Below are positions 15,317-58,200 of a stretch of DNA of 64,000 bases, one piece after another. The DNA lies in IMG/VR virus record IMGVR_UViG_3300048556_000868, positions 1 through 64,000 of that record; one strand, given 5' to 3'. The position numbers were made by a program, and so were the translations under genes. Every line of letters begins with the position of its first letter. The stretch's first letter is position 1. The stretch comes from a virus. The notes below the pieces were generated by a model. It worked only from the letters and a program-made list of their open reading frames with translations, searched no databases and had not been told where the DNA came from.

Positions 15317-15343
15317 ACTAGATTTATTTATGTATAATTATAT

Positions 15344-15363: not shown

Positions 15364-15416
15364 TATTCTTTACGTATTCTTACATTATTGTCTAACGTTA
15401 ATCTTAAAAAATAATG

Positions 15417-15446
15417 TTGACATTACTTATGATATTATGTTAACAT
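15417..15446 (+). promoter_or_regulatory. Predicted sigma70-type promoter of the rightward operon
   Basis: TTGACA at 15417-15422 is followed, after 18 nt, by TAACAT at 15441-15446 (4 of 6 matches). The sigma-factor ATG is at 15470. The -35 is perfect and the -10 is mediocre. Confidence 0.5.
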
Positions 15447-15469
15447 AGTTTCTTTTCAACAAATAATAC

Positions 15470-18038: not shown

Positions 18039-18067
18039 TTGACATTTTGTGCCCCGCACTGTATAAT
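18039..18067 (+). promoter_or_regulatory. Consensus sigma70 promoter, nearly leaderless
   Basis: TTGACA (18039-18044), 17-nt spacer, TATAAT (18062-18067). Both boxes match the consensus exactly. The ATG of the next gene is at 18076, only 8 nt after the -10 box, so transcription would start at or within 1-2 nt of the ATG. Confidence 0.85.
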
Positions 18068-18075
18068 CTTGCATT

Positions 18076-18462: not shown

Positions 18463-18463
18463 T

Positions 18464-28454: not shown

Positions 28455-28479
28455 CCTTGTTCCTGTGTTATATTTACAC
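28455..28479 (-). promoter_or_regulatory. GTGTA element plus AGGAACAAGG leader of the J-like gene
   Basis: GTGTA (28479-28475) overlaps the last sense codon and stop of the K gene. Ten bases later comes AGGAACAAGG (28464-28455), directly followed by the ATG at 28454. The same GTGTA-N10-AGGAACAAGG layout precedes the tape measure gene. Confidence 0.6.
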
Positions 28480-38936: not shown

Positions 38937-41900
38937 CTATCGAGTTCTCCGCCTAGTCTTTTCTCCTCTCTTATAACCTCTAGAACTCTCGTCTTTATTT
39001 TCATTGCAAGTTCTTGTTCTTGTTGGTAGGATCCTTCTGGGGTTTGAGCTTCCACACTTTCTTTGCCAGAGCTATCAATGGTTACATTAACGCTAATGTT
39101 GTTGGTTATTTCGTTGTTTTGAGCTGCGCTTGTTTTTTCTGTTTCTGATGATTTTGCAGCTTCTATTAAAGGCTGTATTCTGTTTACTGGCTGATTTCCT
39201 TTTGGGCTTTCTGGGCTTGATTGGTTCGAAGGAAAGCTGGCTTGGCTGCCAGTACCAACAATTCCGCCGTCATAATATCCAGTTGCGCTTTTCCTGAATC
39301 CATCTGGATTTTGCATTGCGAAACGCATGGTATTTGGATTGTCTCGCATCAACTTATCGGTAGAACTTTTTCTTATAATAAAATCTCCTTCGTCAAGTCC
39401 AACAGGGCCAACTTTATCAATCCCAGATGGACCTTGTATTCTAGGAAGAGAGCCTGTTCTGTTCATTGATTCAAGGTTCTGATAGCCGATTTTTTTAGCT
39501 GTACTTGAAGGTATAAACCCTTCTCCTCTTGTTAGCATTGATGGAATTTTTCCTCCAGAATTATTTTTTAAGGTTTTTCTTCCGTAAGAGCTTCCCATAT
39601 TGTTTAAATCTGGTCGGGTGGGATCAACAAGTGGTCTGTCGTCAAATGTTCTTGTTTTTGTTACTTTTAAGAAATTGCCAGGTTGATAAGTAGTTGATCC
39701 AATAAAAGGGGAGTCTCCAGATTCAGGTCCAATTTTTCTTCTATCTTGAGGTGTTAAGGTTCGCGTAGTTGCGTATTTTGTGCCTTGATTACTTGTATAT
39801 TCTATCGGCTGTCCAGTTTCAAAAGAGTTTTTTATTTGATTGTAATCAAGATCATATCCCCTTCTATTTGCTGCTTGATAAGCATCTGAATATTCTCCAA
39901 ATCCTAAATCTCCATTAAAGAAATTACTAGCTTTGTTTCCAATGTATTTTCCTGTTTTTACAAAAGGTGATGTTACGAAATCAACTGTTTTTCTTAAAGG
40001 TTCTCTAAGAACGTCTGTTACTTCGGCGACGGCAAAGCTGCTTATGAAACCCATAGCTTGCTGGAGGTATCCCATTCTTTTTTTGAATTTAGCGTTCTTT
40101 TTATCTACTTCGTATGCAGCTTTTTCTAAAAGGTAATCTTTGTATTCTTGCATCTCTTGGCTTTTTGCCAAAGCCCTCCCGCTCATTCTTGGGTCTCCTG
40201 TTTTTAAACTAACATCAGAACCTAGGGCAAGAGGGTTCATTTTTTTCATATCAAAGACGGGTGGCCCTTTTTTCTTGCTTTGATCTTCCATTGCTTTATT
40301 TACAGCGTCAGCAGTTATGGTCATGACCGCTAATTGAGTGGCTCCTTTAAAGAATCTAGTAGCTCTTCCTCCTCCTGAAAAATTTTGAACCTCTTCTTTG
40401 GGTACAACATATTCTCCAGCAGTTAACATTGCTGGGACATTATCTATACCTGCTGGACCTTCAACTAAGCCACCTTTTGCAAAGCGTTGGATTTTTCCGC
40501 CCCAGAAATTTTGTCCAGTAGGAGTGGGGTCTACTACTGGAGGAGAGCCTATTGTTGTGGTAGTTGTGACAGCAGTATTTTGTATATTTATTAAATCTTT
40601 TTCTTGGGCAGCCAAGATTTGTTTTTCAATAAGTATTCGTCTTTTTGCAATATCAGCTATTTTTTTATTTAATCCATTTATTTCATCTATTGTATTTTTT
40701 TGCAAATTATCTAGAACTAAGTGTTCTTTCTCTAAAGTTATTTTTTTATCCTTTATTTTTTTAAGTTCTTCATCTTTTTTATCAATATCTTTATTTAGTT
40801 CATACTTTTGTTCATCTGTTAGGTTACTTGGCTTGGGGCTAGATCCAGAGCCTGTTTTAATAAACTTTTCCCTCATCAAGCTTATTTCGTTTTGCATTGC
40901 CTCTATTTCGCTTTCAGCTTTTGTGATTTTGTCAATTACTTCTTTCTTTTTACCTTCCAGCTCATCAAAATTATTATCTCCAAGCACGTATGGAGCACCA
41001 AGGGGTGTTGGATCAAGGATATTCCGCTTGTCTAATACTTCCATAGGACTTAATTTATCCCCTTTTGCAATAGATTCTTCCAGATCATTTTTCTTTATTC
41101 TTTGTTCAAAAGTAAGATCTCCTTGTGCTTTATCAAAATAACCTCGGGATTTTTCATCAAATATAGACATTATATCCTTTGGCTTCTCTGAGGTAAAATT
41201 TTGAGCTGTTTTGATAAGTTGATCTCTTTTTTCAAAAGCCGCTTCTAGATCTTCATCTAATTTTTTTTGGTTTTCTTTTTTTAAAGCAATAGTTCTTTCT
41301 AGGGTATGTGGCCCAGCCCCTTCCCTACCACCATTTTTGGCCAAAGCGTCTTGAGTGGAAACATTAACTTGATTTTCTGCCACAGAATGATTAGTTATTG
41401 GGCCCTGTTGTTCTTTTATTTTTTCCGCATCTACTTCAGATTTAATTTCCTCAAGCTTTTGTCTTATTTTTTCGAAAGCTCCACTTAAGCTTTCTATAAA
41501 ATCGCCCCCAGCATTGCTGAAATTATTTATTTCGCCTTTTAGGTTTGTTATATGTTTTTCTAAGTCGCTTCCTTTTGGGGCGATTCCTTCAAGAAGAGAT
41601 TTGTTTGCTTCTTCTATAGCTTTTCTTACCTCTTCCATGGTAGCTGGAGTCTCAGAGGATTTATCAGGTTTTACTCCTTCCATTAATTGACCTCTTAGTT
41701 TTTCCAAGGCCAAAGTATTTGCAGATACTGCGTTGTTGTTTTCAAGCAAAAATTTATTAGCTTCTTTTTCTGGGTCTACTCCAGTAAATGCATAAGTTAA
41801 ATTACTAATGATTTTATCAACATTATGTTGCATCATTCTATCTAGAATTGCTTCGGCCAAACCAAGGCCAAGGTCTCGATATGCATCGCCTACTGATTTA

Positions 41901-44900
41901 GCTCCTGACCCAATATCTTTAAACATTTGAACCATATTGGTTCTTAAATTTTCAATACCTGTGTTTACTAAATCTGATTTTAGATTAGAAGCAGAGACCT
42001 GCATCTCAGCCATTTTTATTCTTAAAGCGTCTATCGCTTCTGTTCCATTGTTTGTGGTTTTGTTAAATTCCTTTAGTTTTTCAGTAAATGCAAGCATATC
42101 TTCCGCTGTTGCATTAGGGTTGATCGCCTGTGTTGCAGCAGCTCTAGCGTCATATCTTTGGTTAAAACGATTAATTTGCATGTCAGCGCCAACCATACCT
42201 GATAACGCTCTTTGATCTATTGAGGCTCTGTTTGCGGCAAGTCTGGCTTCGTCAATTTTATTTGAAAAATCAAGAAGTTCTTGAGCTTTTTTCTGTCTTT
42301 CGTTTATACCTTCTAGTAACTGCGCTTGCTCTGATTTTAATCCAGCTAAGTATGCATCTTTTTCAAGCATTGAAGTTTCAAGCTTTAATTCTTCTTGTAC
42401 TGTTTCGAGCAATTTGCCATTGTTTGCGGCAACTTGAAACTTAGTTTCTTCTATTAATCTTTGGGATCCTAACTCAATTAGCTCTGATTTGACTTGTGAT
42501 TCTACTAAAGCTAATCTAATTTTTTCATTTCTTAATACTTCTAATTTTGCTTGAGAGGTAAGTTCTGCTATTTTTGTGTCAGCAATTTCATTTTGTAAAA
42601 GAAGCTCGCCTATTTTTTTTCTTTCTTTTTCATTTTGTAATATGTTAATACGTTCTGCTTTTTCTTGTATTTGAGTTCTAAGAGAAGATATTTCTTCTTT
42701 AAATTTTTCTTCCGCTGTTCTTTTTCTTAATCCAAGTACATCGATTAAACCTTGTTGTATATCGTTTTCTTTATTACTTTTTAAAAGGCTAAAGTATTCT
42801 GATGCTACTTTGTCTGTTAATATCTTTACATTAGTTTCTCTAAGCTCTAAAAGCTTGCCATCTAATTTTAAACTTGGGTCTAAAGATAACACATCTGCTT
42901 TCAGTAAACCTACTTTGGGTTGATTTTCCATCAACTCTGTTGTATTTTTGCCAATTTTTACTTCAACAGCTTGGGCGGTAAGATCGTTTATTATTTCTTT
43001 TCTTAAGTTGTATTCTTCTAATTTTGCATTATTGATTTGCATGTCAAACATTGTTGACTCTTGTATTTCTTTAGCCAAAGTTTTACTATCTGTTATCCTG
43101 TCTTTAAGTATTTTGTATAAAGTTTTATTACCCTCTAGTGTTTTAGCTGTTAGATTTTCGCTTTCCATTTGTAGTGAAAGTTCTTTTCGGGCAATTGCTT
43201 CTGCTTTCTTAGCCGCGTCAATCTCTTGTTGTTCTGTTAATTTTGATTCACGAATTTTTTTAATTTGTTCTTCTCGTAACTTAAGTATATTAGTACTGGC
43301 CAATACAAGAGCGGTAACATTTTCATCTCCTTCTTCCGCTAATCTTGAGTAAAGATCGGTTAGTATTTTTTGAAGTTCTACTGTCGATTTAGGATTTTTG
43401 TCTACATTTTTTAGTTGTTCTTCAACTTGCTTTTTTGTTTGTTCAATTATTCTGGAAGCGGTTTCTTTATCTTTTTTTGATGCGGTTATTTTATTTTCTG
43501 GGTTTAAGCCTTTGTTAATTTTTTCAAAAGTTTTTGCAGATTCTATTACTCTTTTCCCTGCCAAATTTAAATCCGTCTTTAAATTTTCCAAAGCTGTCTT
43601 CATGCTACCAACATCCATTTCTGCAAGATTGTTTGTAACAAGTAATTTGTTTGCTTGCTCAAGAAGAGCTTGGTTTAGTTTTTCTCTAGCGTTTGTTGTT
43701 GAAAGTTTTTCTGTATTTTGAATATCTTCAAGAGCAAGGCTTTGTTTTTCTGCGAGTAATTTTGACTTGGCGATTAAGTTTTGTTCATCTAAGAATTTTG
43801 ATCTTTGAGATGTTTGTTTGTTTATAATCTTATTCAAAGAATTTTCGTGTTTAGCTGCGGCTATTTTCATCTTAGAAACATGTTTTTCTATAACCACCCT
43901 TCTTGCTAATTCTTTTATTCCTTCACTGTTACTTTGAATAAGATTTCTTAAAGATTCGCTAACGTCATTCTTTTTAAACCCATCAATAAAACTTTTCATT
44001 GCTTGCCTGAATGCTTCATCTTCATCCATAGGTTCAAATGGGTTAAAACTTTCTGATTCTTCTAGGCCGTCATGAAGAGTTTTAAATACATTCCTAAAAT
44101 CTTCTTGAGAGACGCCTTCTTTTAGTCCGAAATTCATACTATCAAGCATTCCGTCTGGCTCTCCTCCTGCTTGGCTTAATCTTTTAAAAAGATCTTCGTT
44201 TTTACTAGCTTGACTTTCGTCCATCAAACTTCTGGTTAACATAGCTAAACTATAACCCCTGCTTTTACCTGCATCGTTTAGCTTATCATTATTGTCTATT
44301 GAATCAGTGGTATTAGCAAAGGCTTCATTTGTTGAAACAACAGCTTGAAAGACTTTCATTTGTTGAAGCATTGATTCAAGGCCAGCTTTATCTAAAGTAG
44401 ATTTTCCTGCTTTTTTTGTTGCTTCAGAAAACATTCTCATTGCAAAACCGCCTTCGTTTGCTTCTTTTTGCAGTTCTGCCATAGATCTTGCTACAGCAAT
44501 TTCTACATCATAAGATTTTACTCTGAGATCTAATAACTCTTGATCTTCTTTTATTGTTCTACCGCTACCTTTTATTTCAAGCTCGACAATTTTTTGCTTG
44601 TTTTCTTCTTGTTTCTTTAATTCGAGCCTGTGCGCAGCCTTCTCTGATGCTGAGCCCATAACAGACATATATATCCCCATTTTATCATCGCTAATAAAAT
44701 TTTTAAACACACCATCAGCTAATTTAAAACCAGCTACAACAGCCGCGACTGGTTTGATAAATCTCTGCATAGCCTGAGCTCCTCTTGCAGCCATGTTTCT
44801 GATGCCCGCAAACATTGATCCTCTAGCTGCTCCTCCAGCAGCGGCTCCTCCAGCAACTCCTTCAATAATCCCACCGCTTCCTCCTTCTTCATCCTCTTTT

Positions 44901-47900
44901 TGTTTTTTACCTATCGATTCAAAGAAATTGGCCAATTCATCTCCAAGCATTTGTATTTGCACAAAAGAGGCGACTGTATCTGAAGCGACAGTCCCCAGTT
45001 TAGCGAAAGTTCTAGTTACCGTATTTGTACTTTCTGCAAATTCTTGTAAAAATCCATTTGTAGTACTAATTATGGATTGAAGTGCAAAAAGTTTGACTAA
45101 GTTGTCCCCCTGGCTTTTTGTGTTTTGTTGTACTTCTATATCGGCTTCTTCTATACTTGAAGTTAATTTTTTAGTTGCTTCTTCGAGCTGCGCCATCTTT
45201 TTGTCTGCATTATCTTTTGTGGCTCCAATGGAATGCTGGCTATTCGAACCAAGTATTTGCTTAGGGTTTTTTGTAAATTTATCTATCCCTTTTTGTTTGA
45301 TGGTTTCAGCTTCGTCTTTTATATCTAGAACTTTTTTGGTATCTTTTGTTTTCTTCGCTTCTTCTATTGAATCATCAAATTTCTTTTTAAGATCTTTAGC
45401 TAAATCTCCTAGCTCAATGTCATCTAGGGTTTTTTCTATGTCCTTAAATGAACTTTCTGCTTTAGATACAATATCATTCAAAATTTTATCAAATTGATCT
45501 TTGCTTACTGGAGTTGCAAAATTTGGAACATCAATGCCGTGTCTCTTGGGGTCTATTCCTTGTTTTTTGGCTCTTCTTATTCCTTGAGCTAATCCACCTG
45601 GTTCATCACGAGTGTTTGTGACTGCAAGACCCATTGGATTCATTGGGCTTTTTAATTGAGAACTTTTTTCTACCCTGATTCTTGAACTAGGTACGCCAGC
45701 CGATTTTTCTCTTTGTAAAGCGTCTGAAAGAGGGTTTGCAAAATTAGGAGTTAATCCTTTTGAAAAAGGGGCTAAGTTGTCTCTGTCAGTAAAAGCTTGC
45801 TTTCCTAGCAGTGCTACTTCATCTTCAAACTCATTTTGTTTTTTTAATTTACTACCTTCATCCATCCACCTTTTTATGTGAAATCCGATGTCTTTATTTT
45901 TAGCGTTTTCTAAAAACCACTGAACTGACTTTGCCTCCGACCAGCCTTTTCTGTCCATCATAAAATTAAGCAATTTTTCTACTTTTCTAGGATTGTACAT
46001 ACGTCTAAAACTCATGTTTTCTTTTGATACTAACCCTTGCTTTGAAGAATCCTTGCTTGTTGCAAACTCCATGGCTACGCTTTTTTGAGTTGATGTAGAT
46101 ACTAGGGACGATGCGTTTTGATTATCCGTATGTCCAAGCAAATATTGTTTAAGATCTTCTATGCTGGTTATCGAACTAGATGCGAATTGTTTTTGCCTCT
46201 TGGGAGTTAGTTCAAAAACATCTTTTTTGTTGTATTTAGCTCCCTTGTCTCTTATTACTCCCCTGTATAAGTCCATGCCCGCAAAATTAGGCACCAAACC
46301 TTTACTAAGATCTCCTTGCATTAAAGGGTCTTCTGCTTGTTTGAACTTTCCTTTTGCTAGCAATAAAGTTTCAAAATGCCCGAGCATGTAGCCGTCTAAT
46401 ATATTCCTAAGTTTTCTTTGGCTTCCCGCTATTTGAATTAAATCTTTTTCGCTTTTGCCTGAAGTTTTAAATGTTTCAATTAAGTTTCTGTCTTCTGCGG
46501 TGCCAGTTAAAGACATTCTTCTTTCGTTTAATCCAAAAGAGCTAGATAACCCTGAGATTTTAGAAATGAAATGATCAAACATATTAAACGCTATGTCTTT
46601 ATCCCTTTCACTTACTCCGCCTCCAATAAACTCTCCTTTACCCTTGACCCTATCTTCTTGAGATTTTATCGTTCTTGAAACTTTAGAAAAATTTGGTATT
46701 AAACCAGAGTTTCTAAATGATCTTGGGCCTTTTTTAGGGTAATCGGTTTGGTATGGATTGTAAGATATAGATTTTTCTCCTGGAACTCCATAAGATTTTG
46801 TTATACCTGGATAATACCCTAAAGTGTTTGGATCATTCATTGAGTCTGAATGAGGATTTTTACCAAATCTTTCTTGAGCTCTTTTTGCTGTTGAAACATC
46901 GGAGTCTAAATATCTTGTTTCTCCTAAATAGTTCGCGTACTCGTTGTAAATTTTTTCGTTTTGTATAAAGTCTGCATTTTTGATTTCTCTAGCTTTTTCA
47001 AAATTTTCACTTTGAATAGCTGATTCAAGATCTTTTCTTTGTTTTACAAATCTTTGTAGTCTTGACGTATGACTATTTTTGTTTGACTTATTTAAGTATT
47101 TTTCATCTAGGTCTTTGAGCCTTTGGCTTCCTATTTGTTTTATTAATTCTTCTTTTTTGGATTTTTCAATCCTTTTTGATGATCTGATAGCTTGAGCAAC
47201 ATTTTTCTCTCCTCCTCCAGTTGGGGCATTGATTATTTTATTTCTTGCTTGTCCTAAGATTGGATCAGGGTAATGCCTGTCGAATAGTTTTGGGTCTTCT
47301 CCGCGCAAGGCTTTCTCTCTGTTAAGTTGGTTTCGATTTTGGATATCTTTTGTTCTGCTGTCAAGCGTTCCGAACATTTGTTCATGAACGTTCCTTGCTC
47401 GTTTATTTTTTTCAAAACTGTTTGGGTCAAAAGCAAAATTAGGAACTAAACCTTTGCTTTGATTATCAACATGCTCTTTTATTCCCTCAATCCCCATTCT
47501 TCTGGAAGCATTCATTGCTTTCTCTGGATCTTTTGCTACATCAGATAACATTTCTGAAAACCCTTTATTGTCTAAATGCTTTTCGGATATTTTTCTTTCA
47601 ATTAGATGATTATCTCGATTTAAATTTGGAGAGAATATTGACCTTATTTTTTTATCATCTTCGGTTGTAAATCCATCTTGATAAATATCAAGAGCGCCTA
47701 AGTCAGGTATAATGTAGCCAGGCCCAAACATTTCATTAGTCTTATATGTTGCTAACGGTAGTGGGTTATTTATAGTTCCAGCCATACTATTTTTCCATAA
47801 ACGATTTTGGTTTTGGGTTTTTCTTAGTCTTGAATATGCGCCTAGCCTGCCTTCCATTTCATCAGAAGCATCATCAAATCCATTTCCTGAATTATTGACA

Positions 47901-50900
47901 AGATCATCTTCCCACTCTTCGTCATTTTGATCAGGCATTTCATTATTCGCCTCGAAAGCTCTACTCATAACCCTTAGTTTTCTTAAATTCCCAGAACTGT
48001 AAACTCCAGACGTCATTTCTTTTAGGTTGCTATCGCTAAGTGAATATTCACGAGCATATAAATGTCCAATGCCTTTGCTCACGGCTCCGCTAGATACCAC
48101 GCCTCGCCAATCATCTAATATTCCATCTGTTCCTTTTTGACTATCAAAATACCAAGCGCTACTAGTCCTGTTGGCTCTATAGTTTTTATCGTCACCGATA
48201 TATGCTTGATATAGTTTTTTATAGTTTGGAATAAAACCTCCATATTTTCCTTCTCGATTATTAGGTATAGCTCCCCATGCCCCTGAGCCTCCACGCGATT
48301 TGTCATATTTAACAAAATTAGGAATAACATTTTTCCCATCCAACCTGTTTAAATTATACATCTCCCTGAATTGCGACGAGTTAGTCATTAAGGTAGAATA
48401 AGTCTCACCGTTTCTCCAGGAATCTGTTTTTTCAAAGAACGGAGGCCTTATCCCAAGAGTATTCTTTAAAGCTATGGCATAAAAATCTTCCTGCTCGCTC
48501 ATCCCTTTTCCGAGACTTGTATCCCTATAAGGGTCGCCCTTGCCAATAGGGGTCCTGGTTCCTATTGGCAGTACATTCATCTGAGGTTCGATATCCTGAG
48601 GATTATTAGATGTTAACATTTCCCAAACTCTCGGAGGAAAATTAAACTTCCTGAGCTCAGAGCTTCCAGTTTTTATATTCAAATTTTTGTTGGACTTTAT
48701 GTAATTTAGTGCGTCCTCCTGATTATTAGAACTGTAGAAATAATTTTCCATACCTATAGCCTTTCCCCCTTTATTCATGTATGGCTTGTATAAATCAGCA
48801 AAGTTCGGAATTAGGCCTGAAGAAAAATCAATCGCAGCCATACTGTCATTAGGCAAACTTCTCAATCCCAATCTACTCAACGGCTTAGATTCTTTTGATC
48901 CGACAGGGGCAAATTGATTAACCGTATTTAAGAGTTGTTTCTTCTTGCTTGCCTCAGCTATAAAATTACCAGAATGTACATCCGTTATCATCGTGGATTC
49001 GCCAATGTTTTCCATTAAATGCTCGACAATCTTATAACCGTCTAGATTAAAGTCGGTTTTATTGTTTTTGTTTTTAACAATTTCGTTCTGAAGATTAAAA
49101 AAAGTACTACCCTTAACCCTTTCCTGGGAAGTTATAAACTCGTCTTGCCCAGCTACTTTTAACACCTCTGTTTTTGGTAAAAACAGTGAATTAATACCAA
49201 GCTCATCAAGTTGAGACCTTATTCTTTCCGCTCTTTTTGCTATATTTGAATTCGGCACAAGATTCCAAGCTTTATTTTCTGGACTCACTTTATACTGAAG
49301 AGAAGGTTGAGCCATCACTTTCATTTGCTTTCTCCATCTTTTTAGTTCTAGATCGCCTGTTTTACTAAAGCTATCTATCATTGGCCTTGGCAGCTTATAA
49401 ACAACCTCCTCGTTTCCTATGGCCCACGATTCCATTCCATTGCCAATCATCTTGAATTCTTTGTCCTTGACGGTCTTTAAGGCCCACTTTGCTAGCGGAC
49501 TGCCCATTTTTGCTAAATCTTCGTATTCGTCCTGGAAACTTAATGTACTTTTCATCATCTTGAGCCTCTCTGATTTGCTTAGATCGGCAAAATTAGGCAC
49601 CAACCCCTTATTCATTCCCCAAGCGTCAGCGTCTATTTGATCAAAAGTGGGTTCTTCAGATTCATCTTTTTTAGTTCCTTTTATTCCTAGTTGAGAGGCT
49701 AGGTTTTGAGCTCTTTTTAAGTTTTTTTCATCAAGACCTTTGTCTTTAACGCCTTGAGATTCTAACCATGAGGTTAATTCTCTATCAGAAGCCATTCGCA
49801 AACTTTTAGAGATCAAATTTGCGGCGATAAATTCTCCGCTTTTAGTTTCTCCTGAAGAAAACTCAAGACCTTCTGCTATATGATCGATGGGATAAGAAGG
49901 GTCGCCCTTTTTTGTTTCAGGGTTATATGTAGATAAATATTTTGTGTAAGTTGATCCAGCTGTTTCTCTTATATCTTGTTCCGCATTTAATTGAGCAGTG
50001 ACTTTTCTTTCGTTAAAATCTGGATCTGATTCTCCTTTTTTTTGTCTAGCTCCTCTTCTTTTAAGTTGCCTGAAAATAAAATCTCTTTCTATATAAGAAA
50101 TCCCTTTTGACGCTAAAGAGTTAAAGGTGCCATGTAATGCTTCTTTTCCAGTGGGTTTTGTTTTATTTTTGTCAGACGAAGTTATGATATCCAGCAGGCT
50201 AGCTTTTATCGATACAGGTTCCTGTGAGTCCATCTTATCTTGAATTTCTCTGTAATTTACTCCTTTCCCTAGAGCTTTAGCCACATCGCTTGAGTTGGCA
50301 TAAGTAAAAAATTTACTTGGCTCCATCAACAAAGTATTGCCTGCTTGTTGTGCAAAGTTAGGAACAAGGCCAGAACTCTTTTTCTGGAAGTATTCTTTTG
50401 CCTGTTCAGCTGAAACTGCTTCAAGATCTTTGAAAAATACTTCCTCATCTTTGTATTTTTCCATGTCGTGATGTTTGATCCTTGCGATTTTCTTGTCATT
50501 ATCTACGCGAGTTACCCTCACGATCTTATTGTGAGGCTTACTGTAGTAGATTGCACCGTTTTGAACTTTATCAACGAAGTTAGGAACGAGACCAGAAGAA
50601 TAGCTTAAATCTTTATCGCCATAGAAATCCCCATCTTTTGTTGATTCTTTGTATTTTTTAAGAACAGAATCTATGTCTACGTTTTTTAAATTTTCAAAAC
50701 CCTCCAGTTGTAAATCTTTTCTTTTCTGTATTGTTTCTGATATTGCTTTTTTAATTTCATTGTCAGAATATTCTTTAGTAACATTACCTCCTACTGGGAC
50801 ATTCATCGCCATACTTATTTGCGTAGGAGTTATATTTGCTGGCATTTTAGGCCTTTTAAACTTTACTTTGTCATTAGCTGGATCATTTAAATAATCTGTT

Positions 50901-53900
50901 ATTTTTTGTTCACGAGTTCTGTAGTCTGCAAAATTAGGGATTAGGCCTAAATTTGCTTTTATATTGTGGGCTTGTTTGTTTCGCTGCTCTATATGTTTCA
51001 TAGTAGGAGCGCCAAAACTTTCTGTATGAAAATATTCTAGACGCCCTAAGCTTCCATACCCTGCTCGTGGTGGCCATGATATTGAGTCAGTGCCAATTAA
51101 GTGCCTTAAAAATTTTCCTGTTAAATGCTCGTCAAGGGTGTTTTTATATGCTGTTGGTCCGAATTTAGCTTCTCCAGGGACATCTATAAAATCAAGAGGA
51201 GATCCCGCAAGTCCTCGTTTACGACGTTTAAAATCTGAAATTGCATGTTCAAATCCATTCGCGTTCAAGCTATAAGGCGCATTTGCTAAAGTATTATAAC
51301 TTAAAAAAACGGGTTTTGGTGGGTTTCCTTGCATTTTAGCAAATCCATAATGATCAACATTTGCGCTAAAATTTTGTTTTTTGAAGTCGGCTAGTTCTTT
51401 TTTAGTTAGTGGGTTTATATCAAACCTTTTATCTAAACCTAAAAAACTTTGAGGAGCTCCGTTTTTTATACCATTGAAAACACTATCAATTTCTTTGCCA
51501 GTAGCATTTACTTTTGACTTTCCCTTAGATTCTAATGATACATTTGCCCATGGACTAGAATTAGGTGGGCCAACGTAAGTTGAATCATCTTTTAAATATA
51601 TTGGTGGCGCTACAAGCTTGTCTTCGTTGACGAATTGATTTCTGTAAGATGTAACTGAATTTGCAAAAGATACTTTAGATCTTCCTCCAGCTTCAATTGC
51701 GGCTTGAAAATGATGTCCAGATGCGGATTTTAAAATTTTTTGTTTTAAAAATTTATCCATTAATTCGTCATCGGTTATTGTCGCAATTCCTTTTTTTGCG
51801 GGGTCTTGCTCCCGTTGTATAAATTTTGCAATTTTTTCTTTATTCGTTGGTAAGTATTGGTAGTATTCTGTGCGTGGTCTTGTATTAACAGTGTATCCAG
51901 CTTTGTTTAATTTGGCTCCAAAATCTCTATTAAAGCTTGAATTGGCTTTTTTATATGGATTATCAGGGGCTCCTGGAAGGCCAGTGGCATCTGTAAGTTC
52001 TTTGTTTGTCATTCTGTACCCTTCAGACAACCAGGCATTTTTTAATAATTGGTAAACCTTATCAACATTAGAGCCTTTTCTGGGCACAAAATTAGGAATA
52101 AGTCCTCCACTAGCATAAGGATCAAAACCATGTTTTTCTGAAAATTTTTCTTTATAGTTTCTTCCAGCCCTACTGCTTTGTGGCGGCATAATAGCAGGCT
52201 GTTTCATTCCCTCAAAATTCTTTACTTTTTCGGCGGTATTATAAATAACATCACCCATTCCAGGGACTTTCATTTTGTTTACTCTTCCAGGGCTATAGCC
52301 TCCTTCTATGGCTCCTTTTCTTTCTGCATTTTTTTCTTGAGGTAAAATACCTCCAGCGCCTGAAATCACCCCATCTCCATCGATATCAACAAGCGTACCA
52401 GGGGTATTATCGTAACTAAGATCTGGAGTTATCCCTCTTTTTAAAAGAGCGGGGCCTAATTTGCTTGCGAGTTGTTGTTGTTTTGCAAGCGCATTTGTTT
52501 GAGCTTCTATTATCCCCAGTATGTATTGCTCTTGAGCAATCCTGTCTCCTTCAAGTCGATTTAAAGCTTGAGTTACTTGAACATTTGAGCCTAATACTTT
52601 GACTATAGACTCTTCAATTTGCCTAACTTTTTCTTTTTGAGTTACTATTCCTAAAACATCTTTTAACGAACCAGAAGCGAACTTAAAAACATTAAATAAA
52701 AGTTTTGTAAAAATAGCCGCAAAAGCTATAACTCCTGGACCAGTCAAAACATTCCCAATACCTCTAACTAAACCTTTTGCAAACGCATTACCTTCGTCTT
52801 CTCCTCCTCCTAATGCATTTTTTAAGCCTTCTATAGCATTACCAAATATTCCAACTGCTTCGCCTAGCTCTGGCTTTATCGCCAATTCACCCATTATTCC
52901 TACTAGTTCTTTTAATCCAGAACCAGCTTGCGAAGCCATAGCGGATATACTTTTATTTAAAAGTTCATTTTTTCTAGCTGCCTCTCCAGCTGCGTTAGCT
53001 GATATTTCAGTAGCTTGCTGTTGAATACCTTGAGTTTTTGCTAAGTCAGTAAGAGCGGCTCTAAAAATATTAGCTTGAAATATTCCAGCGGCAAACTGAA
53101 CAATGTTTGATTGTTGACTTTGGGATAGTTCTTCAAAACCTTTTGCTATATTCTTTAAGACTTTGTCAGCTGGAAGAACTGCTCCAGTTAGAGTTCTAAC
53201 TGCAACGCCCATATCTTCTAGCTGCCTGATGGATTCTGGCCTTTGGATTCTCGTAAAAATAGTTTTAAGTCCATTACCAATAACCGCACCACCACGAGCA
53301 GTTGTTTGCTGCAAAGAAGTTATAATTCCAACTAAGTTATCAAGGTCAACACCAGCATCAATAGCAACAGCGCCAGCCCGCTCAAGACCGTTAATTAGAT
53401 CTTCAGAGCTAACAGCGAATTTTACGTCTACAGCCGCTAGTTTATCTATAATATCCGTTGTAGTTAAACCTGCTTCCCCGAAAGCATTTACTGCGGCAGT
53501 TAATCCAGAAACAGCTTCAGCCGCATCTAAGCTTGTGATACGAGTCAATGTGAGGGCATCGTTAGTTCTTTTTAAAACTTCTTCTACGCTTAAACCTTGA
53601 CGAGAAAATTCAAGAGCGGCGTCAGCGGCAATATTGAAAGATTGAGCTGTGTTTTGCGCTACATCAAATAAACCTTGTCCAAACTTTTGTATCTGCTCAT
53701 TTGAGGAATTTAAAACCACGTTAATATCTTGAAGGGTTTTTTCAAACCTAACAGTTTCTGCAATTAAAAATTTAAAAGAATCTGTTATTGCATTAATTAT
53801 TCCAACTGAAGCTCCAAACGCTATAACACGAGCATTAGAAGCTTCTAAAGATTTGGTGAATTCATTTGCAGACGATGTAATTCTACCAAGCGGCTGAGTA

Positions 53901-54043
53901 AAGCTTTTTCCGTTTACATTAAAAGATATATCTTTCCCTGAAACATTTTGTACGGTTTTGTTTACTTCTCTAGCAGCGCGATCCATGCTTCGTTTTACTG
54001 AAGCCATGTTTACTTTTAGATCAACATTTGCTCTTACTGCCAT
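38933..54043 (-). CDS. Giant tape measure protein with cargo domains separated by GLVPNF motifs
   Basis: The protein has 5,036 residues, several times lambda gpH. About 1-420 are a TP901-type tape measure core (DINVVLNSSNEQIQKFGQGL, RGGAVIGNGLKTIFTRIQRP). About 645-2840 hold cargo units bounded by 13 GLVPNF-type motifs: a PD-(D/E)XK-like unit (D951/D954, E958, K960), a small beta barrel (about 1150-1215), a second PD-(D/E)XK-like unit (D1387, E1399, K1401), a kinase-like unit (K1550, D1688, H1690, N1693, D1739) and an ADP-ribosyltransferase-like unit (R2594, STS 2649-2651, E2740/E2742). About 2840-4500 contain Gly/Ala-rich hydrophobic and long coiled-coil stretches. The C-terminus has GGLVEGPAGIDNVPAMLTAGEY (typical of tape measures). 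A GTGTA element and AGGAACAAGG leader precede it. The cargo may enter the host with DNA. Confidence 0.85.
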   Translation of the reverse strand: MAVRANVDLKVNMASVKRSMDRAAREVNKTVQNVSGKDISFNVNGKSFTQPLGRITSSANEFTKSLEASNARVIAFGASVGIINAITDSFKFLIAETVRFEKTLQDINVVLNSSNEQIQKFGQGLFDVAQNTAQSFNIAADAALEFSRQGLSVEEVLKRTNDALTLTRITSLDAAEAVSGLTAAVNAFGEAGLTTTDIIDKLAAVDVKFAVSSEDLINGLERAGAVAIDAGVDLDNLVGIITSLQQTTARGGAVIGNGLKTIFTRIQRPESIRQLEDMGVAVRTLTGAVLPADKVLKNIAKGFEELSQSQQSNIVQFAAGIFQANIFRAALTDLAKTQGIQQQATEISANAAGEAARKNELLNKSISAMASQAGSGLKELVGIMGELAIKPELGEAVGIFGNAIEGLKNALGGGEDEGNAFAKGLVRGIGNVLTGPGVIAFAAIFTKLLFNVFKFASGSLKDVLGIVTQKEKVRQIEESIVKVLGSNVQVTQALNRLEGDRIAQEQYILGIIEAQTNALAKQQQLASKLGPALLKRGITPDLSYDNTPGTLVDIDGDGVISGAGGILPQEKNAERKGAIEGGYSPGRVNKMKVPGMGDVIYNTAEKVKNFEGMKQPAIMPPQSSRAGRNYKEKFSEKHGFDPYASGGLIPNFVPRKGSNVDKVYQLLKNAWLSEGYRMTNKELTDATGLPGAPDNPYKKANSSFNRDFGAKLNKAGYTVNTRPRTEYYQYLPTNKEKIAKFIQREQDPAKKGIATITDDELMDKFLKQKILKSASGHHFQAAIEAGGRSKVSFANSVTSYRNQFVNEDKLVAPPIYLKDDSTYVGPPNSSPWANVSLESKGKSKVNATGKEIDSVFNGIKNGAPQSFLGLDKRFDINPLTKKELADFKKQNFSANVDHYGFAKMQGNPPKPVFLSYNTLANAPYSLNANGFEHAISDFKRRKRGLAGSPLDFIDVPGEAKFGPTAYKNTLDEHLTGKFLRHLIGTDSISWPPRAGYGSLGRLEYFHTESFGAPTMKHIEQRNKQAHNIKANLGLIPNFADYRTREQKITDYLNDPANDKVKFKRPKMPANITPTQISMAMNVPVGGNVTKEYSDNEIKKAISETIQKRKDLQLEGFENLKNVDIDSVLKKYKESTKDGDFYGDKDLSYSSGLVPNFVDKVQNGAIYYSKPHNKIVRVTRVDNDKKIARIKHHDMEKYKDEEVFFKDLEAVSAEQAKEYFQKKSSGLVPNFAQQAGNTLLMEPSKFFTYANSSDVAKALGKGVNYREIQDKMDSQEPVSIKASLLDIITSSDKNKTKPTGKEALHGTFNSLASKGISYIERDFIFRQLKRRGARQKKGESDPDFNERKVTAQLNAEQDIRETAGSTYTKYLSTYNPETKKGDPSYPIDHIAEGLEFSSGETKSGEFIAANLISKSLRMASDRELTSWLESQGVKDKGLDEKNLKRAQNLASQLGIKGTKKDESEEPTFDQIDADAWGMNKGLVPNFADLSKSERLKMMKSTLSFQDEYEDLAKMGSPLAKWALKTVKDKEFKMIGNGMESWAIGNEEVVYKLPRPMIDSFSKTGDLELKRWRKQMKVMAQPSLQYKVSPENKAWNLVPNSNIAKRAERIRSQLDELGINSLFLPKTEVLKVAGQDEFITSQERVKGSTFFNLQNEIVKNKNNKTDFNLDGYKIVEHLMENIGESTMITDVHSGNFIAEASKKKQLLNTVNQFAPVGSKESKPLSRLGLRSLPNDSMAAIDFSSGLIPNFADLYKPYMNKGGKAIGMENYFYSSNNQEDALNYIKSNKNLNIKTGSSELRKFNFPPRVWEMLTSNNPQDIEPQMNVLPIGTRTPIGKGDPYRDTSLGKGMSEQEDFYAIALKNTLGIRPPFFEKTDSWRNGETYSTLMTNSSQFREMYNLNRLDGKNVIPNFVKYDKSRGGSGAWGAIPNNREGKYGGFIPNYKKLYQAYIGDDKNYRANRTSSAWYFDSQKGTDGILDDWRGVVSSGAVSKGIGHLYAREYSLSDSNLKEMTSGVYSSGNLRKLRVMSRAFEANNEMPDQNDEEWEDDLVNNSGNGFDDASDEMEGRLGAYSRLRKTQNQNRLWKNSMAGTINNPLPLATYKTNEMFGPGYIIPDLGALDIYQDGFTTEDDKKIRSIFSPNLNRDNHLIERKISEKHLDNKGFSEMLSDVAKDPEKAMNASRRMGIEGIKEHVDNQSKGLVPNFAFDPNSFEKNKRARNVHEQMFGTLDSRTKDIQNRNQLNREKALRGEDPKLFDRHYPDPILGQARNKIINAPTGGGEKNVAQAIRSSKRIEKSKKEELIKQIGSQRLKDLDEKYLNKSNKNSHTSRLQRFVKQRKDLESAIQSENFEKAREIKNADFIQNEKIYNEYANYLGETRYLDSDVSTAKRAQERFGKNPHSDSMNDPNTLGYYPGITKSYGVPGEKSISYNPYQTDYPKKGPRSFRNSGLIPNFSKVSRTIKSQEDRVKGKGEFIGGGVSERDKDIAFNMFDHFISKISGLSSSFGLNERRMSLTGTAEDRNLIETFKTSGKSEKDLIQIAGSQRKLRNILDGYMLGHFETLLLAKGKFKQAEDPLMQGDLSKGLVPNFAGMDLYRGVIRDKGAKYNKKDVFELTPKRQKQFASSSITSIEDLKQYLLGHTDNQNASSLVSTSTQKSVAMEFATSKDSSKQGLVSKENMSFRRMYNPRKVEKLLNFMMDRKGWSEAKSVQWFLENAKNKDIGFHIKRWMDEGSKLKKQNEFEDEVALLGKQAFTDRDNLAPFSKGLTPNFANPLSDALQREKSAGVPSSRIRVEKSSQLKSPMNPMGLAVTNTRDEPGGLAQGIRRAKKQGIDPKRHGIDVPNFATPVSKDQFDKILNDIVSKAESSFKDIEKTLDDIELGDLAKDLKKKFDDSIEEAKKTKDTKKVLDIKDEAETIKQKGIDKFTKNPKQILGSNSQHSIGATKDNADKKMAQLEEATKKLTSSIEEADIEVQQNTKSQGDNLVKLFALQSIISTTNGFLQEFAESTNTVTRTFAKLGTVASDTVASFVQIQMLGDELANFFESIGKKQKEDEEGGSGGIIEGVAGGAAAGGAARGSMFAGIRNMAARGAQAMQRFIKPVAAVVAGFKLADGVFKNFISDDKMGIYMSVMGSASEKAAHRLELKKQEENKQKIVELEIKGSGRTIKEDQELLDLRVKSYDVEIAVARSMAELQKEANEGGFAMRMFSEATKKAGKSTLDKAGLESMLQQMKVFQAVVSTNEAFANTTDSIDNNDKLNDAGKSRGYSLAMLTRSLMDESQASKNEDLFKRLSQAGGEPDGMLDSMNFGLKEGVSQEDFRNVFKTLHDGLEESESFNPFEPMDEDEAFRQAMKSFIDGFKKNDVSESLRNLIQSNSEGIKELARRVVIEKHVSKMKIAAAKHENSLNKIINKQTSQRSKFLDEQNLIAKSKLLAEKQSLALEDIQNTEKLSTTNAREKLNQALLEQANKLLVTNNLAEMDVGSMKTALENLKTDLNLAGKRVIESAKTFEKINKGLNPENKITASKKDKETASRIIEQTKKQVEEQLKNVDKNPKSTVELQKILTDLYSRLAEEGDENVTALVLASTNILKLREEQIKKIRESKLTEQQEIDAAKKAEAIARKELSLQMESENLTAKTLEGNKTLYKILKDRITDSKTLAKEIQESTMFDMQINNAKLEEYNLRKEIINDLTAQAVEVKIGKNTTELMENQPKVGLLKADVLSLDPSLKLDGKLLELRETNVKILTDKVASEYFSLLKSNKENDIQQGLIDVLGLRKRTAEEKFKEEISSLRTQIQEKAERINILQNEKERKKIGELLLQNEIADTKIAELTSQAKLEVLRNEKIRLALVESQVKSELIELGSQRLIEETKFQVAANNGKLLETVQEELKLETSMLEKDAYLAGLKSEQAQLLEGINERQKKAQELLDFSNKIDEARLAANRASIDQRALSGMVGADMQINRFNQRYDARAAATQAINPNATAEDMLAFTEKLKEFNKTTNNGTEAIDALRIKMAEMQVSASNLKSDLVNTGIENLRTNMVQMFKDIGSGAKSVGDAYRDLGLGLAEAILDRMMQHNVDKIISNLTYAFTGVDPEKEANKFLLENNNAVSANTLALEKLRGQLMEGVKPDKSSETPATMEEVRKAIEEANKSLLEGIAPKGSDLEKHITNLKGEINNFSNAGGDFIESLSGAFEKIRQKLEEIKSEVDAEKIKEQQGPITNHSVAENQVNVSTQDALAKNGGREGAGPHTLERTIALKKENQKKLDEDLEAAFEKRDQLIKTAQNFTSEKPKDIMSIFDEKSRGYFDKAQGDLTFEQRIKKNDLEESIAKGDKLSPMEVLDKRNILDPTPLGAPYVLGDNNFDELEGKKKEVIDKITKAESEIEAMQNEISLMREKFIKTGSGSSPKPSNLTDEQKYELNKDIDKKDEELKKIKDKKITLEKEHLVLDNLQKNTIDEINGLNKKIADIAKRRILIEKQILAAQEKDLINIQNTAVTTTTTIGSPPVVDPTPTGQNFWGGKIQRFAKGGLVEGPAGIDNVPAMLTAGEYVVPKEEVQNFSGGGRATRFFKGATQLAVMTITADAVNKAMEDQSKKKGPPVFDMKKMNPLALGSDVSLKTGDPRMSGRALAKSQEMQEYKDYLLEKAAYEVDKKNAKFKKRMGYLQQAMGFISSFAVAEVTDVLREPLRKTVDFVTSPFVKTGKYIGNKASNFFNGDLGFGEYSDAYQAANRRGYDLDYNQIKNSFETGQPIEYTSNQGTKYATTRTLTPQDRRKIGPESGDSPFIGSTTYQPGNFLKVTKTRTFDDRPLVDPTRPDLNNMGSSYGRKTLKNNSGGKIPSMLTRGEGFIPSSTAKKIGYQNLESMNRTGSLPRIQGPSGIDKVGPVGLDEGDFIIRKSSTDKLMRDNPNTMRFAMQNPDGFRKSATGYYDGGIVGTGSQASFPSNQSSPESPKGNQPVNRIQPLIEAAKSSETEKTSAAQNNEITNNISVNVTIDSSGKESVEAQTPEGSYQQEQELAMKIKTRVLEVIREEKRLGGELDR
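45516..52110 (-). repeat. Thirteen G-[LIF]-[VIT]-P-N-[FY] motifs in the tape measure
   Basis: Copies begin near residues 647, 1031, 1149, 1221, 1479, 1741, 1904, 1933, 2196, 2445, 2580, 2761 and 2836. Most are preceded by S-S, S-K or N-K and followed by A-D, V-D or A-x. On the + strand they appear as variants of gcaaaattaggcaccaaacc. They partition the cargo into units of 30-385 residues. The last copy lacks the leading G-L (reads D-V-P-N-F-A). Confidence 0.85.
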
Positions 54044-54099: not shown

Positions 54100-55227
54100 T
54101 TAAGTGGGGTCATACTCAGATATAATAGGTTTTATTGTTACATTTTTATTTATTGTGAAATAAACATAGTATTCGCCATATTCTTCGTCATACTCTTCAT
54201 CTAAATCTTGTATCTGATCTTTTATATCATTTCCGTTTTCATCTACGTAAGTAAATTCATCTATTTTGTATTTTGGTACACCGTCATAATCTCCATCATG
54301 CTCTATGGAATCGTATCTAAATACATACTCGTCGTTTTCATCTGTGTATTCGCTAATAAAAAATGATGCCTCAAGTTCTTCTCCGTATGAAAATGAATCA
54401 AAATCTCCTTCTACAATAACCACTGTTTCCTCTTCTACGGAATCATCTTCTAGCGCAAAAGGTATTCCGTCTGATTCACTTAAATTAAAATTTAGCTCAA
54501 CAGCTTGAAAATCTGCTGTGGCAATTATGTTGTCTCTGTCTATTTTTATCGTTGTTTCAATAGAATATTTATCTGTTATATTTATACCTATCCATTCTGT
54601 AAATTCGTGTGAATCTGTATTAATTGCTTTTATTGGAGCGTCAGATAAGTAATCTTTTAATCCAGATAAAGTTTCGTCAACCAGACCTATTGGATCTCCG
54701 TTTTCATCAACCACGCTACTTAATGATAAATTAAACTTTGCAGGTTCGAAATTTGCGTTTATAGTTATAGTTTTCTCAAGCAGTATAGATTGAGCGACAA
54801 GGCTTGGGTCCGCAAAAGTATAATCATCAGAATCCCAACCTGTAAATACGTAACCGAAATCCACTTTTAAATCTATATCTAGAAGATCTCCTGGAAAGCC
54901 TCTCAAAGTCCCTATCACAGATCCATGGTCGGAATTTACAATAATTCCCAAGGTATCATGTATTTCGCATATATTAGTTGCGCATAAAGTTAAACCACCC
55001 TTGAAATCTCTTGAATATGCTGCGTAAGCCCAGACTCCAGGTCCCTCTACTTCATCCACATAGTTAGTTATTGTTAAATTTTTTGTTTCAAATACTAATT
55101 CTTCGTTGTATAGAAAGTTGCACCCTCTAATGTTTTTCCCCTTAAATAGCATGACTGCTTCGATATCACTTGTATGCAAAGGTATATCCCAGTCCGCTAA
55201 AAGTTGGTATTTAAAGTTATTGCTCAT
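54100..55227 (-). CDS. Adhesin-like tail protein: FnIII-like domain plus InlB-type repeats
   Basis: The 375-residue protein has an N-terminal fibronectin type III-like domain (about 1-95, YQLLADWDIPLHTSD, then GPGVWAYAAYSRD) that is paralogous to the N-terminus of the 2,439-residue neighbour. It is followed by about two divergent InlB B-repeats (FGYVFTGWDS...TITINANFEP; HEFTEWIG...IIATADFQ) and a very acidic C-terminal region rich in D, E and Y. No membrane segment. It probably serves as a short fibre or tail decoration paired with the large adhesin. The ATG overlaps the upstream stop as ATGA. Confidence 0.68.
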   Translation of the reverse strand: MSNNFKYQLLADWDIPLHTSDIEAVMLFKGKNIRGCNFLYNEELVFETKNLTITNYVDEVEGPGVWAYAAYSRDFKGGLTLCATNICEIHDTLGIIVNSDHGSVIGTLRGFPGDLLDIDLKVDFGYVFTGWDSDDYTFADPSLVAQSILLEKTITINANFEPAKFNLSLSSVVDENGDPIGLVDETLSGLKDYLSDAPIKAINTDSHEFTEWIGINITDKYSIETTIKIDRDNIIATADFQAVELNFNLSESDGIPFALEDDSVEEETVVIVEGDFDSFSYGEELEASFFISEYTDENDEYVFRYDSIEHDGDYDGVPKYKIDEFTYVDENGNDIKDQIQDLDEEYDEEYGEYYVYFTINKNVTIKPIISEYDPT

Positions 55228-58200
55228 GTTTCTTGAGTTGGTATGTCTAACACAAAGAACGCCTCGTTTCCAGATATAGCTATTTTGGTGGCGACACCTT
55301 CTTCTCTAGTATCAAAAACGATTGCTTTTCCGAATAAATTAATATAACCAGCCCCTGGAAGAGAGTCTGTCATAAATATTTTATTCCAGTAATCGAATTC
55401 CTCTGAAGTACTGTTCCATTTATATAGATAAACCGTTTGATGGACTGGTGTTGATACAGCAAGGTAATTTCCATCAAAAGCTATATCATAAGCAAAGTCT
55501 CGCTTTGTATATTCTGAAAGATCATTATCGCCATCAGGTATCCGTATTGATTGTACATTTTTATACTCAAACCATTCATAGGTATTACTATTATGATTGA
55601 TTGTTATAGGTTTTCTCAATAGTACTTTTACTTCCCCGAATTTATCATCTTCATAGAGTATGTTGTCTTCATCAGGATTCGATGTTCTTGAATTACTTAT
55701 TACGGCTATTGAACCGTCTGGGGATAATCTTACTTTTTGTCCATAATCACTTTCTGTGTTGTACACTCCATTTATATTGTTTCCAAAAGAAAATCTATAG
55801 TCTATAAGGGGTTCCTGGTCTGCATATATTTCTTTATTACTCCAGTTTGACATGTAACTATTCATAGTCCTTGTTGTATCAGGAATTTTAATTGAACTAC
55901 TGCCTCCATCATGATATCCAATTCCCATTTTGTGAATAGTGGAACCTTCTTTGTATACCCCTATTATTTTTGTTATTGAATAGCCTCTGGTCCAAAATGT
56001 ATACGTTTCATTTGAATTATTCGGTTTCCATACCGATGTAATTGCAATAAATATAGGGTTAGTTACTGAAGAATTTTCTAGCGTAGGACTATCCCTTGAT
56101 ACGTCTACAGATCTTCCAAATTGAGACCACGATCCATCATTAGATTCTCCTCCGATATCTCTAGATCCCAAGTCAAAAACTATATAATCTTCTTCGTCTC
56201 TTTCGTGCCCCTGAACTCCAAAATCTACATCCACGAGTCCTCTTTTTGGCCCAGGCATATCTATACCTGTATTATTTAAATGGTTATTGGGTACGACATG
56301 TATTACATTTGCATTATTGGGTACTAGCTCAGTATTCGAACTAAATATACTTGTTGGATTAACATTTTGATATCCTGGAAAACCGCCACTCCCTGATCCA
56401 CTAGTTGTATTGTGCTGAATGGGTAAAGTTTGCTGTATGCTGCTTGGGGCAGAATAAGCCGCATAATTCTTAGCTATACATATAGAAGCTCCATAAAAAG
56501 TTTTACTACTTTGCCTGCTAAAACTAAAATCTATAGTCGAAGCATTAGCGATATGGTCAATATTCACGCCCCCAGCTGTATTTGTTCCTGAACCTATTGC
56601 CCCTATATCTCCATCGCTATTAATGTTCGTAACCGTCCCAAGGGTTAAATTCCCATATTCTGTAGACCCGTAATAATTTGCATAACCCCCCAGAATAAAG
56701 CTAGTAGTTATCCCTTTGTCTCCTGGGCCGCCTCGCATTATTTTGCTTCCATCTGGCGAGACAGATAGGGATGAGGCGATATTACTTTTTTCTAATCTTT
56801 TTTCCCAGTTCGTTGCGGACAAAGCGTTCAACGTTAATTTTGATACTCCTTCTGCTCCTAGGTTGTAGCCTCCTGATGCAGCAGTACTGTTTAAAAGCGG
56901 CAATATAGCTTCTATTTGGTTTTGATCGTTATCTTTATTAATAACCCTAATAGCTGGAGTATACTTTGTTGCAGACGACGGTAAATTATTAACATCTCTT
57001 ATCGCCTTTAATCTATCAAGCGTTGGTTTGTATTGCGAAACTATGACTACAGCTGCGCCATCCTTAGTCATTGCAAGCATATTTCTATCTATTTCTACCC
57101 CGTTATTGCCTGCAGAAGAGAGGATAGGTATTAATTTATTACCGTTTCCATCTTGAGGTAAAGGTATTTCTTCAAGAATTAAAGTTAAGGTTGCGTCTCC
57201 TTTTATTTGTATTGTTTGATTTTGCTCTGACGTGTCTAAATCTCCAGGCTCTTCTCCATCAGTAAAACTCCATCTTAAAAACTTGTACCCTGGATTTGGG
57301 ATGCCAGATATATCTACTGATTGATTGTATTCGTAAGTTCCAGCTCCTATTGCTGATCCCCATGAATTGTTATCATTTATAATTATTGTTAAGGTATAAG
57401 GTATTCCTATGAATACTGGCCTTATTTTAACATCTTCAGTTAACCTTATAATGTCAGAAGCTGAAGCATTAAAGTCTTGCCAATTATCCGCAGAAACTTC
57501 ATATTCCCATTTTGAAAATTGAAAATTAGAGTTTGCGTTTGCTTTTAATGTAATATCTTGAAAAGCATTATAGCTTCCATTGTTTGTGCTTCCAGAAGTG
57601 TTTCCGTTTGCCCCCTGAACAATAGTAAAAGAATATAATTTGAAGCTAAGGTTGGCCCGCAGAGTTACATCGCTTTCTATTTGTATATCTGAAGATGATG
57701 TAGAAGGAATATTTCCTTGTAAAGTTCCTAAAATTAAACCCCAATCATCAAAGTCAAGATGATCTGGCGGGGTAACACTTAATGATATTAAATCGTCTAA
57801 AAAATACGGTCCAGTATTACTTGCATCGTTTTTAACGTTATGACTATAAGAAAAATCAGGCGAACTTTGAGGGTACGCTGTAGGGTATTCCGCTGTTATT
57901 GAAAGTTCATGTCCTTGGTATACCAAATAATCTATAGTAACATTATCTGTTAAAGTAATTTTTTTGTCTTCAGGCCAAACCGTCGAAGGTTCTGAGGATA
58001 AAGCGCTTGCGGTACCCTGCGTTATTTCCCAGTTTTGAAATTCTTGATCGCTAGGGACATCAATTGACCGTATGGTTATTTCGCTGGTTCCTTCCATTAC
58101 ATTTTGAGTAGACACATTTGTAGGTGATCCGTTGTCTACTATTTTCCTGATAGTAAAAACATAACCCTGTAAAGTTCTCAAATTGTATGTTAAGGTTGCG

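Follow-up and report, generated by a model that had tools for sequence, protein, structure and literature searches.

The 64,000-nucleotide stretch analysed here (the window; positions 1 to 64,000 of IMG/VR virus record IMGVR_UViG_3300048556_000868, our record G000, a 137.7 kb virus contig) encodes a tape measure protein (TMP) in which about 11 units, separated by a short repeated peptide motif, are inserted between the N-terminus and the ruler. The gene is a single open frame of 15.1 kb (38933-54043, minus strand, as are all of its parts given below) and specifies 5,036 amino acids without one cysteine. Its N-terminus matches the PhageMin_Tail family of Pfam (PF10145, E 3.6e-24, exceeding the family cut-off) and the tape measure group phrog_4211 of PHROGs (E 1.2e-46), in agreement with the initial annotation, which had described a 15.1-kb gene with a tape measure N-terminus; TMP-type homology covers roughly the first 450 residues. 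Downstream follows a lambda-like run of siphophage-type tail genes: a minor tail protein, an L protein (PF05100), a K-like protein with JAB and NlpC/P60 domains, and a J-like tip protein.

The inserted cargo extends from residue 647 to about residue 2842, and its length of about 2,196 residues bears out the earlier estimate of about 2,200. Thirteen motifs had been counted in it, a total that holds if two degenerate copies are included (NVIPNF at residue 1905 and GIDVPNF at residue 2836); the strict pattern G[LIF][VIT]PN[FY] occurs 11 times, compared with 0.002 copies per protein in composition shuffles. The spacing between motifs ranges from 31 to 386 residues. Agreement between the codons of the different copies is 91% at first and second positions and 44% at third positions, which indicates that selection acts on the peptide and not on a DNA site; a DNA recombination site is disfavoured by this third-position value. 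Across the family of related proteins described below, 594 instances yield the consensus [AMK]-[SA]-x-G-[FLY]-[IV]-P-N-[FY]-A, in which the hydrophobic-Pro-Asn-aromatic core is conserved between very different units. The motif is absent from the TMPs of six annotated phages (lambda, SPbeta, AM5, Hotorobo, Stills and FP_Taranis), and neither GLIPNF nor GFIPNF was matched in the open-licence literature, a coverage that leaves preprints aside and makes an earlier description elsewhere conceivable.

In the order of translation, the N-terminal region (residues 1-646, 52106-54043) contains the PF10145 match and ends at motif 1 (GLIPNF, residue 647, 52088-52105), with which the cargo starts. Unit U1 (residues 653-1032, 50948-52087) lies between this and motif 2 (GLIPNF, residue 1033, 50930-50947); U2 (1039-1150, 50594-50929), which has no assigned family, precedes motif 3 (GLVPNF, residue 1151, 50576-50593); U3 (1157-1224, 50372-50575), a small domain likewise without an assigned family, precedes motif 4 (GLVPNF, residue 1225, 50354-50371). 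U4 (1231-1479, 49607-50353) is followed by motif 5 (GLVPNF, residue 1480, 49589-49606) and U5 (1486-1742, 48818-49588) by motif 6 (GLIPNF, residue 1743, 48800-48817). The next four units have no assigned family: U6 (1749-1935, 48239-48799), which encloses the degenerate NVIPNF (48314-48331) and ends at motif 7 (GFIPNY, residue 1936, 48221-48238); U7 (1942-2197, 47453-48220), ending at motif 8 (GLVPNF, residue 2198, 47435-47452); U8 (2204-2446, 46706-47434), for which no relatives were found, ending at motif 9 (GLIPNF, residue 2447, 46688-46705); and U9 (2453-2581, 46301-46687), ending at motif 10 (GLVPNF, residue 2582, 46283-46300). U10 (2588-2762, 45758-46282) is closed by motif 11, the final strict copy (GLTPNF, residue 2763, 45740-45757). 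A closing segment (2769-2850, 45494-45739), which contains the degenerate GIDVPNF (45518-45538), resembles the final unit of the arrays, which is conserved in the family; after it come a K/E/A-rich ruler without tryptophan (residues about 2851-4500, 40544-45493) and a C-terminal region (residues about 4501-5036, 38933-40543) with a weak match to the TMP group phrog_339 (E 0.0018).

At least four enzyme-like units had been predicted, and at the level of residue signatures four can be named: U1, U4, U5 and U10. U4 is putatively PD-(D/E)XK nuclease-like: E115, D157, E169 and K171, in the catalytic order E, D, ExK, do not vary across 13 sequences, most of them with 22-52% identity to U4, and structure modelling predicts a mixed alpha/beta domain, with a pLDDT (predicted local distance difference test score) mostly of 75-96. 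A two-domain model of U4 and U5, in which U5 was poorly modelled, gave no significant match to PDB or BFVD with Foldseek. U1 would be the second PD-(D/E)XK-like unit of the window by its stretch DFIDVPGEAK (residues 951-960), which is without a family match, and is weakly similar to a unit of the related locus L007 that likewise contains LDF..GEAK. U10 is ADP-ribosyltransferase-like in its R-S-ExE residues (R7, S62 and E155 of the ExE, invariant in eight sequences at 22-30% identity), and profile comparison links it to other ADP-ribosyltransferase-like clusters at 86% probability; its model is weak, with a pLDDT of 62, and about half of its top 50 Foldseek matches, individually insignificant (best E 0.31), are ADP-ribosyltransferases of several families. 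A search of viral contigs found no relatives of this unit. U5 has a weak, kinase-like set of residues (a glycine-rich loop in GNGMESWAIG, a lysine in VVYKLP, an HxxN-type loop in DVHSGNF and an Asp-Phe in AIDF), for which neither profile nor fold searches gave kinase support.

Comparison with the closest relatives shows that whole units are duplicated, reordered and exchanged at the motif. The TMPs of loci L006 and L007 are 96% and 91% identical to that of the window in their N-termini, and their cargo differs. A relative of U4 occupies the first slot of L007; identity between the two sequences rises from 5% in the 20 residues that precede the motif to 85% behind it and falls back to 5% past the next motif. 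L006 carries U3 twice in tandem, each copy with its motif, and has U7 between other neighbours, along with counterparts of U2 and U9. The tandem copies of U3 and motif in L006 (TMP residues 1148-1295, locus positions 13442-13885) are nearly identical; this duplication is recent, and the exchanged piece is a motif plus a unit. In L024, relatives of U2, U4, U5, U6, U7 and U9 occur in an order unlike that of the window, with U4 again in another slot and U7 in another neighbourhood. The expectation that units are swapped while the motif stays is thus upheld by homologous units with new neighbours in L006, L007 and L024 and by identity that switches at the motif. Family-wide, 718 homologous unit pairs of 40-97% identity were compared, for description only since the pairs are not independent: out of 510 comparisons in each direction, 150 had a homologous next unit and 86 a homologous previous one.

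The array is confined to the TMPs of one lineage of uncultured phages. Scans of viral contigs, with three motif patterns supplying most of the loci and all locus counts being lower bounds, yielded at least 166 open reading frames (ORFs), that of the window included, with two or more motifs. All 97 that have a visible N-terminus, among the matches listed, are homologous TMPs; 151 of the 166 match a TMP through their N- or C-terminal part, and the remainder are fragments. When relatives were selected free of motif bias, with two N-terminal alignments as queries, 52 of 54 among the matches listed hold 3-11 motifs and the other two end before the region, so that every one of the 52 reaching it carries motifs. 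The array thus extends well beyond one genome. A narrower motif pattern, which 73 viral loci match, gave seven matches in 257 billion bases of prokaryote genomes, every one of them a single motif, and tblastn of the window cargo against 50,697 phage records gave zero matches; GenBank yielded no isolate of the lineage. Every cargo array, short ones included, is bracketed by the motif.

Enzyme families with conserved active-site residues occur among the units of this lineage (596 units; the 403 non-redundant ones fall into 143 clusters, of which 87 have a single member). Three kinds of unit outside the window are firmly assigned. A unit of locus L185 is a CCA-adding enzyme: it matches PolyA_pol above the cut-off (E 9.4e-15) and the poly(A) polymerases and CCA-adding enzymes of PDB (E 2e-15 to 4e-15), is 25-36% identical to stand-alone phage homologues, and has an intact nucleotidyltransferase motif, GG-x-x-R-D...D-x-D. 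The gene segment concerned (L185:7575-8981) places a tRNA nucleotidyltransferase inside a tape measure, where it possibly counters tRNA-cutting defences. A thermonuclease domain is present in five non-redundant units outside the window (PDB E 1.1e-9), and a unit of L039 is a GNAT acetyltransferase above the cut-off. Weaker assignments are a P-loop domain and a GHKL-type ATPase in a 570-residue cargo unit (L013:5042-6751; HATPase_c_3, E 3.8e-5, slightly under the cut-off), while HAD-type phosphatases, zincins with HExxH, ParB-like and further kinase-like units were recognised by eye only; HExxH stretches occur in eight ORFs of the family, with zincin-like cargo units in L060, L129, L233 and L013. 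Three profile groups comprising 97 of the 403 non-redundant units share the pattern E ... D ... [DE]-x-K, and their putative membership of the PD-(D/E)XK superfamily rests on these residues, with no matching fold obtained; in the largest aligned group D and K are kept in 54 of 54 sequences and E in 53. Such a unit is found in 74 of 84 TMPs, mostly in the first or second slot. Searches of the HAD-like, the 17-member PD-(D/E)XK-like and the U4 profiles against PDB sequences found no relatives, and a PADLOC scan of 117 units gave only weak, scattered matches, which were not used. The initial annotation had pointed out that the payload idea depends on the units not folding only as tape measure helices. 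Such an all-helical outcome did not arise: U4 is predicted to be a mixed alpha/beta domain, and its sister units include a CCA-adding enzyme, a thermonuclease and a GNAT.

Cargo and ruler differ in composition and in constancy of length. In the window TMP the cargo contains 0.9% tryptophan, 3.6% tyrosine, 1.3% histidine and 4.4% proline, versus 0, 0.85, 0.6 and 1.4% in the ruler; the median sum of tryptophan, tyrosine and histidine is 4.4% in cargo versus 1.9% in ruler, and is higher in the cargo of 85 of 93 family members. The median length difference between related pairs, which are not independent, is 24% for cargo and 10% for ruler, and between the window and L006 the cargo (first to last strict motif) differs by 606 residues and the remaining C-terminal part by 24, the two complete TMPs differing by 582 residues, mostly in cargo. 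Because ruler length varies less than cargo length among relatives, an indirect sign, the ruler is a likelier determinant of tail length than the entire chain.

Both parts share an exclusion of cysteine. The cargo of 147 TMPs contains four cysteines in 94,532 residues, compared with 0.76% cysteine in the other ORFs of the same loci, and the embedded CCA-adding unit of L185 has none, compared with one to nine in five homologues. This is not a feature specific to cargo, a possibility rejected on finding that five of six control TMPs are also free of cysteine: those of lambda, SPbeta, AM5, Hotorobo and Stills, that is, all five siphophages tested. In FP_Taranis, a phage with a tail sheath gene in its record, the TMP contains five. 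The lack of cysteine therefore seems to be a general rule of siphophage TMPs that has drawn little notice. What is informative is that enzyme units obey it here, a hint that the cargo takes the same physical route as the TMP; the reason for the rule is presumably the avoidance of disulphides in an extended, packed chain that crosses the periplasm.

We consider it probable that this TMP is a tail ruler and, in addition, the carrier of a modular effector payload that acts in the host cytosol; its delivery, its activity and the role of the motif are what we infer from the architecture. The TMP would be threaded into the tail with its cargo extended in the tube, the cargo would exit the tail with the rest of the TMP at infection, and the units would refold in the host cytosol, where nucleases (mostly PD-(D/E)XK-like), ADP-ribosyltransferases, acetyltransferases and kinases could act on nucleic acid and proteins of the host or of rivals before phage gene expression, for counter-defence or early takeover. 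Action in the cytosol is proposed because the chemistry of kinases, ADP-ribosyltransferases, GNATs and CCA-adding enzymes needs ATP, NAD, acetyl-CoA and CTP, which are lacking in the virion. The lambda TMP touches inner-membrane proteins of the host at injection (PMC13190303). The motif itself most likely serves as an exchange-tolerant linker or handle between domains, and it may be cleaved after delivery. A more specific version, to which we lean less than to its converse, is that a large lineage of uncultured siphophages uses the TMP as an effector cartridge, with modules loaded by recombination at a GFIPNF-type motif that would serve in the host as the release site (a cleavage site or unfolding handle), so that each phage would inject its own counter-defence set before expression. 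Several results weigh against a payload of effectors. The units of the window gave no significant match to models of Pfam, PHROG, NCBIfam or PDB, and the names given to them rest on residue signatures and on an alpha/beta model of U4 that has no fold match; the fold matches of U10 to ADP-ribosyltransferases are individually insignificant; U5 has a single close relative, the search of viral contigs having returned the L024 contig locus alone; and the freedom of the cargo from cysteine is evidence of a constraint shared with the TMP, not of delivery.

The location of the units within a structural protein, together with the lack of a recognised family for most of those in the window, would also suit enzyme-derived packing or spacer modules of the tail tube or neck that are structural in the virion and non-catalytic in the host. 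This is unlikely, given active-site residues that stay invariant despite divergence to 20-30% identity, and given many unrelated catalytic folds, each present in few phages and readily swapped, which fits effectors better than a shared structural role. Still less likely is that the units work in the producing cell, excised at the motifs during assembly, in the way that some head and tail proteins are processed, and active before lysis, for example against rival phages. The motif is indeed short, regular and located between domains, and the lambda TMP, which is processed during tail assembly, provides a precedent; however, the cargo keeps the TMP-wide exclusion of cysteine, unlike cytosolic homologues, and a tail-bound chain of few copies is an odd source of cytosolic enzymes. 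A different role for the motif, compatible with an injected payload, is chiefly docking, to a tail-assembly chaperone or to the inner tube wall, so that the cargo is kept stretched, rather than linkage or cleavage. The conservation of its core across very different units and its presence around even the short arrays make docking a reasonable minority view, although a spacing of 31 to 386 residues has no regular pitch. A gene of extreme length in a metagenome assembly naturally raises the suspicion of misassembly, or of a spurious long frame made by joining unrelated genes, but this is refuted to our near certainty, because independent contigs from many metagenomes share the architecture; moreover, the frame is open across 15.1 kb and the motif is conserved at the protein level.

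Several neighbouring genes deserve mention. Directly upstream of the TMP gene lie a 375-residue protein (54100-55227) and, adjoining it, a 2,439-residue protein (55224-62543), both carrying InlB B-repeats, which in the larger protein are divergent (PF18998, E 2.9e-24); at the usual position of the tail chaperones, these are possibly adhesins or fibres. The fused JAB and NlpC/P60 protein, lambda K-like, is encoded at 28474-29199 and is a possible candidate for a processing enzyme, if the TMP is processed; an HExxH metallopeptidase in that role was ruled out for the window TMP, which contains no HExxH. A match to the peptidase group phrog_16701 (E 1.1e-7) is located at 7068-8270, and the large subunit of ribonucleotide reductase (8670-11093) adjoins a cluster (11227-23238) of a nucleotide-sugar epimerase, several glycosyltransferases and a heptosyltransferase-like protein.

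Known systems resemble this one in part. Tape measures that contain peptidoglycan hydrolases occur in mycobacteriophage TM4, in SPbeta-type phages (an annotated lytic transglycosylase) and in Bacillus phage Stills (lysozyme plus LysM), and they too have an enzymatic domain within the TMP; theirs are one or a few wall-cutting domains for penetration, whereas the swappable array described here has as many as ten domains, most of them not directed at the wall. The polyvalent proteins of phages and conjugative elements, with which the initial annotation had compared the TMP, combine ADP-ribosyltransferase, kinase, GNAT, nucleotidyltransferase, metallopeptidase and ParB-like domains and are predicted to be injected with DNA (Iyer et al. 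2017, PMC5512222); the comparison fits in domain repertoire, and the founding paper never mentions tape measures. Both are single, very long chains with many disparate effector domains, of which several types were found here, partly by profile and partly by eye; the activities assigned across the family are nuclease-like, ADP-ribosyltransferase-like, GNAT, CCA-adding, GHKL-type ATPase and P-loop, those in the window by signature only. Unlike polyvalent proteins, the carrier here is a TMP with its array between N-terminus and ruler, PD-(D/E)XK-like units dominate, one dedicated motif marks the boundaries, and the chain is free of cysteine; polyvalent proteins also often, though not always, carry a zincin metallopeptidase, unlike the window TMP with its lack of HExxH. 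The contractile injection system effectors Sle1 and Tme (PMC13277306, PMC11126660) are likewise TMP-like chains ejected as effectors, but they belong to bacterial injection systems, have a single effector region with no array or motif described, and are not the ruler of an infecting phage. Polymorphic toxin systems (PMC3482391) also recombine toxin-type domains behind conserved delivery parts, but their variable part is typically a C-terminal toxin domain, in contrast to the many internal units found here N-terminal to the ruler. No description of effector arrays in TMPs, or of polyvalent TMPs, was found in the open-licence literature, preprints being outside that coverage.

A 2023 survey of mosaicism in phage proteins obtained a mosaic signal in TMPs and left genuine cases unconfirmed (PMC10684548); the present family is a clear case of the TMP domain shuffling that the survey could not confirm. 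The tape measure, so far viewed chiefly as a ruler and a channel for DNA, or at most as a wall cutter, would become a carrier of many intracellular enzymes, and siphophages, if this is true, could act on the host cytosol before transcription. The motif lets such cargo be recognised and parsed in metagenomes, where hundreds of divergent nuclease-, ADP-ribosyltransferase-, kinase- and acetyltransferase-like domains become candidate early counter-defence factors, and cargo that is naturally swapped hints at a route of protein delivery worth study.

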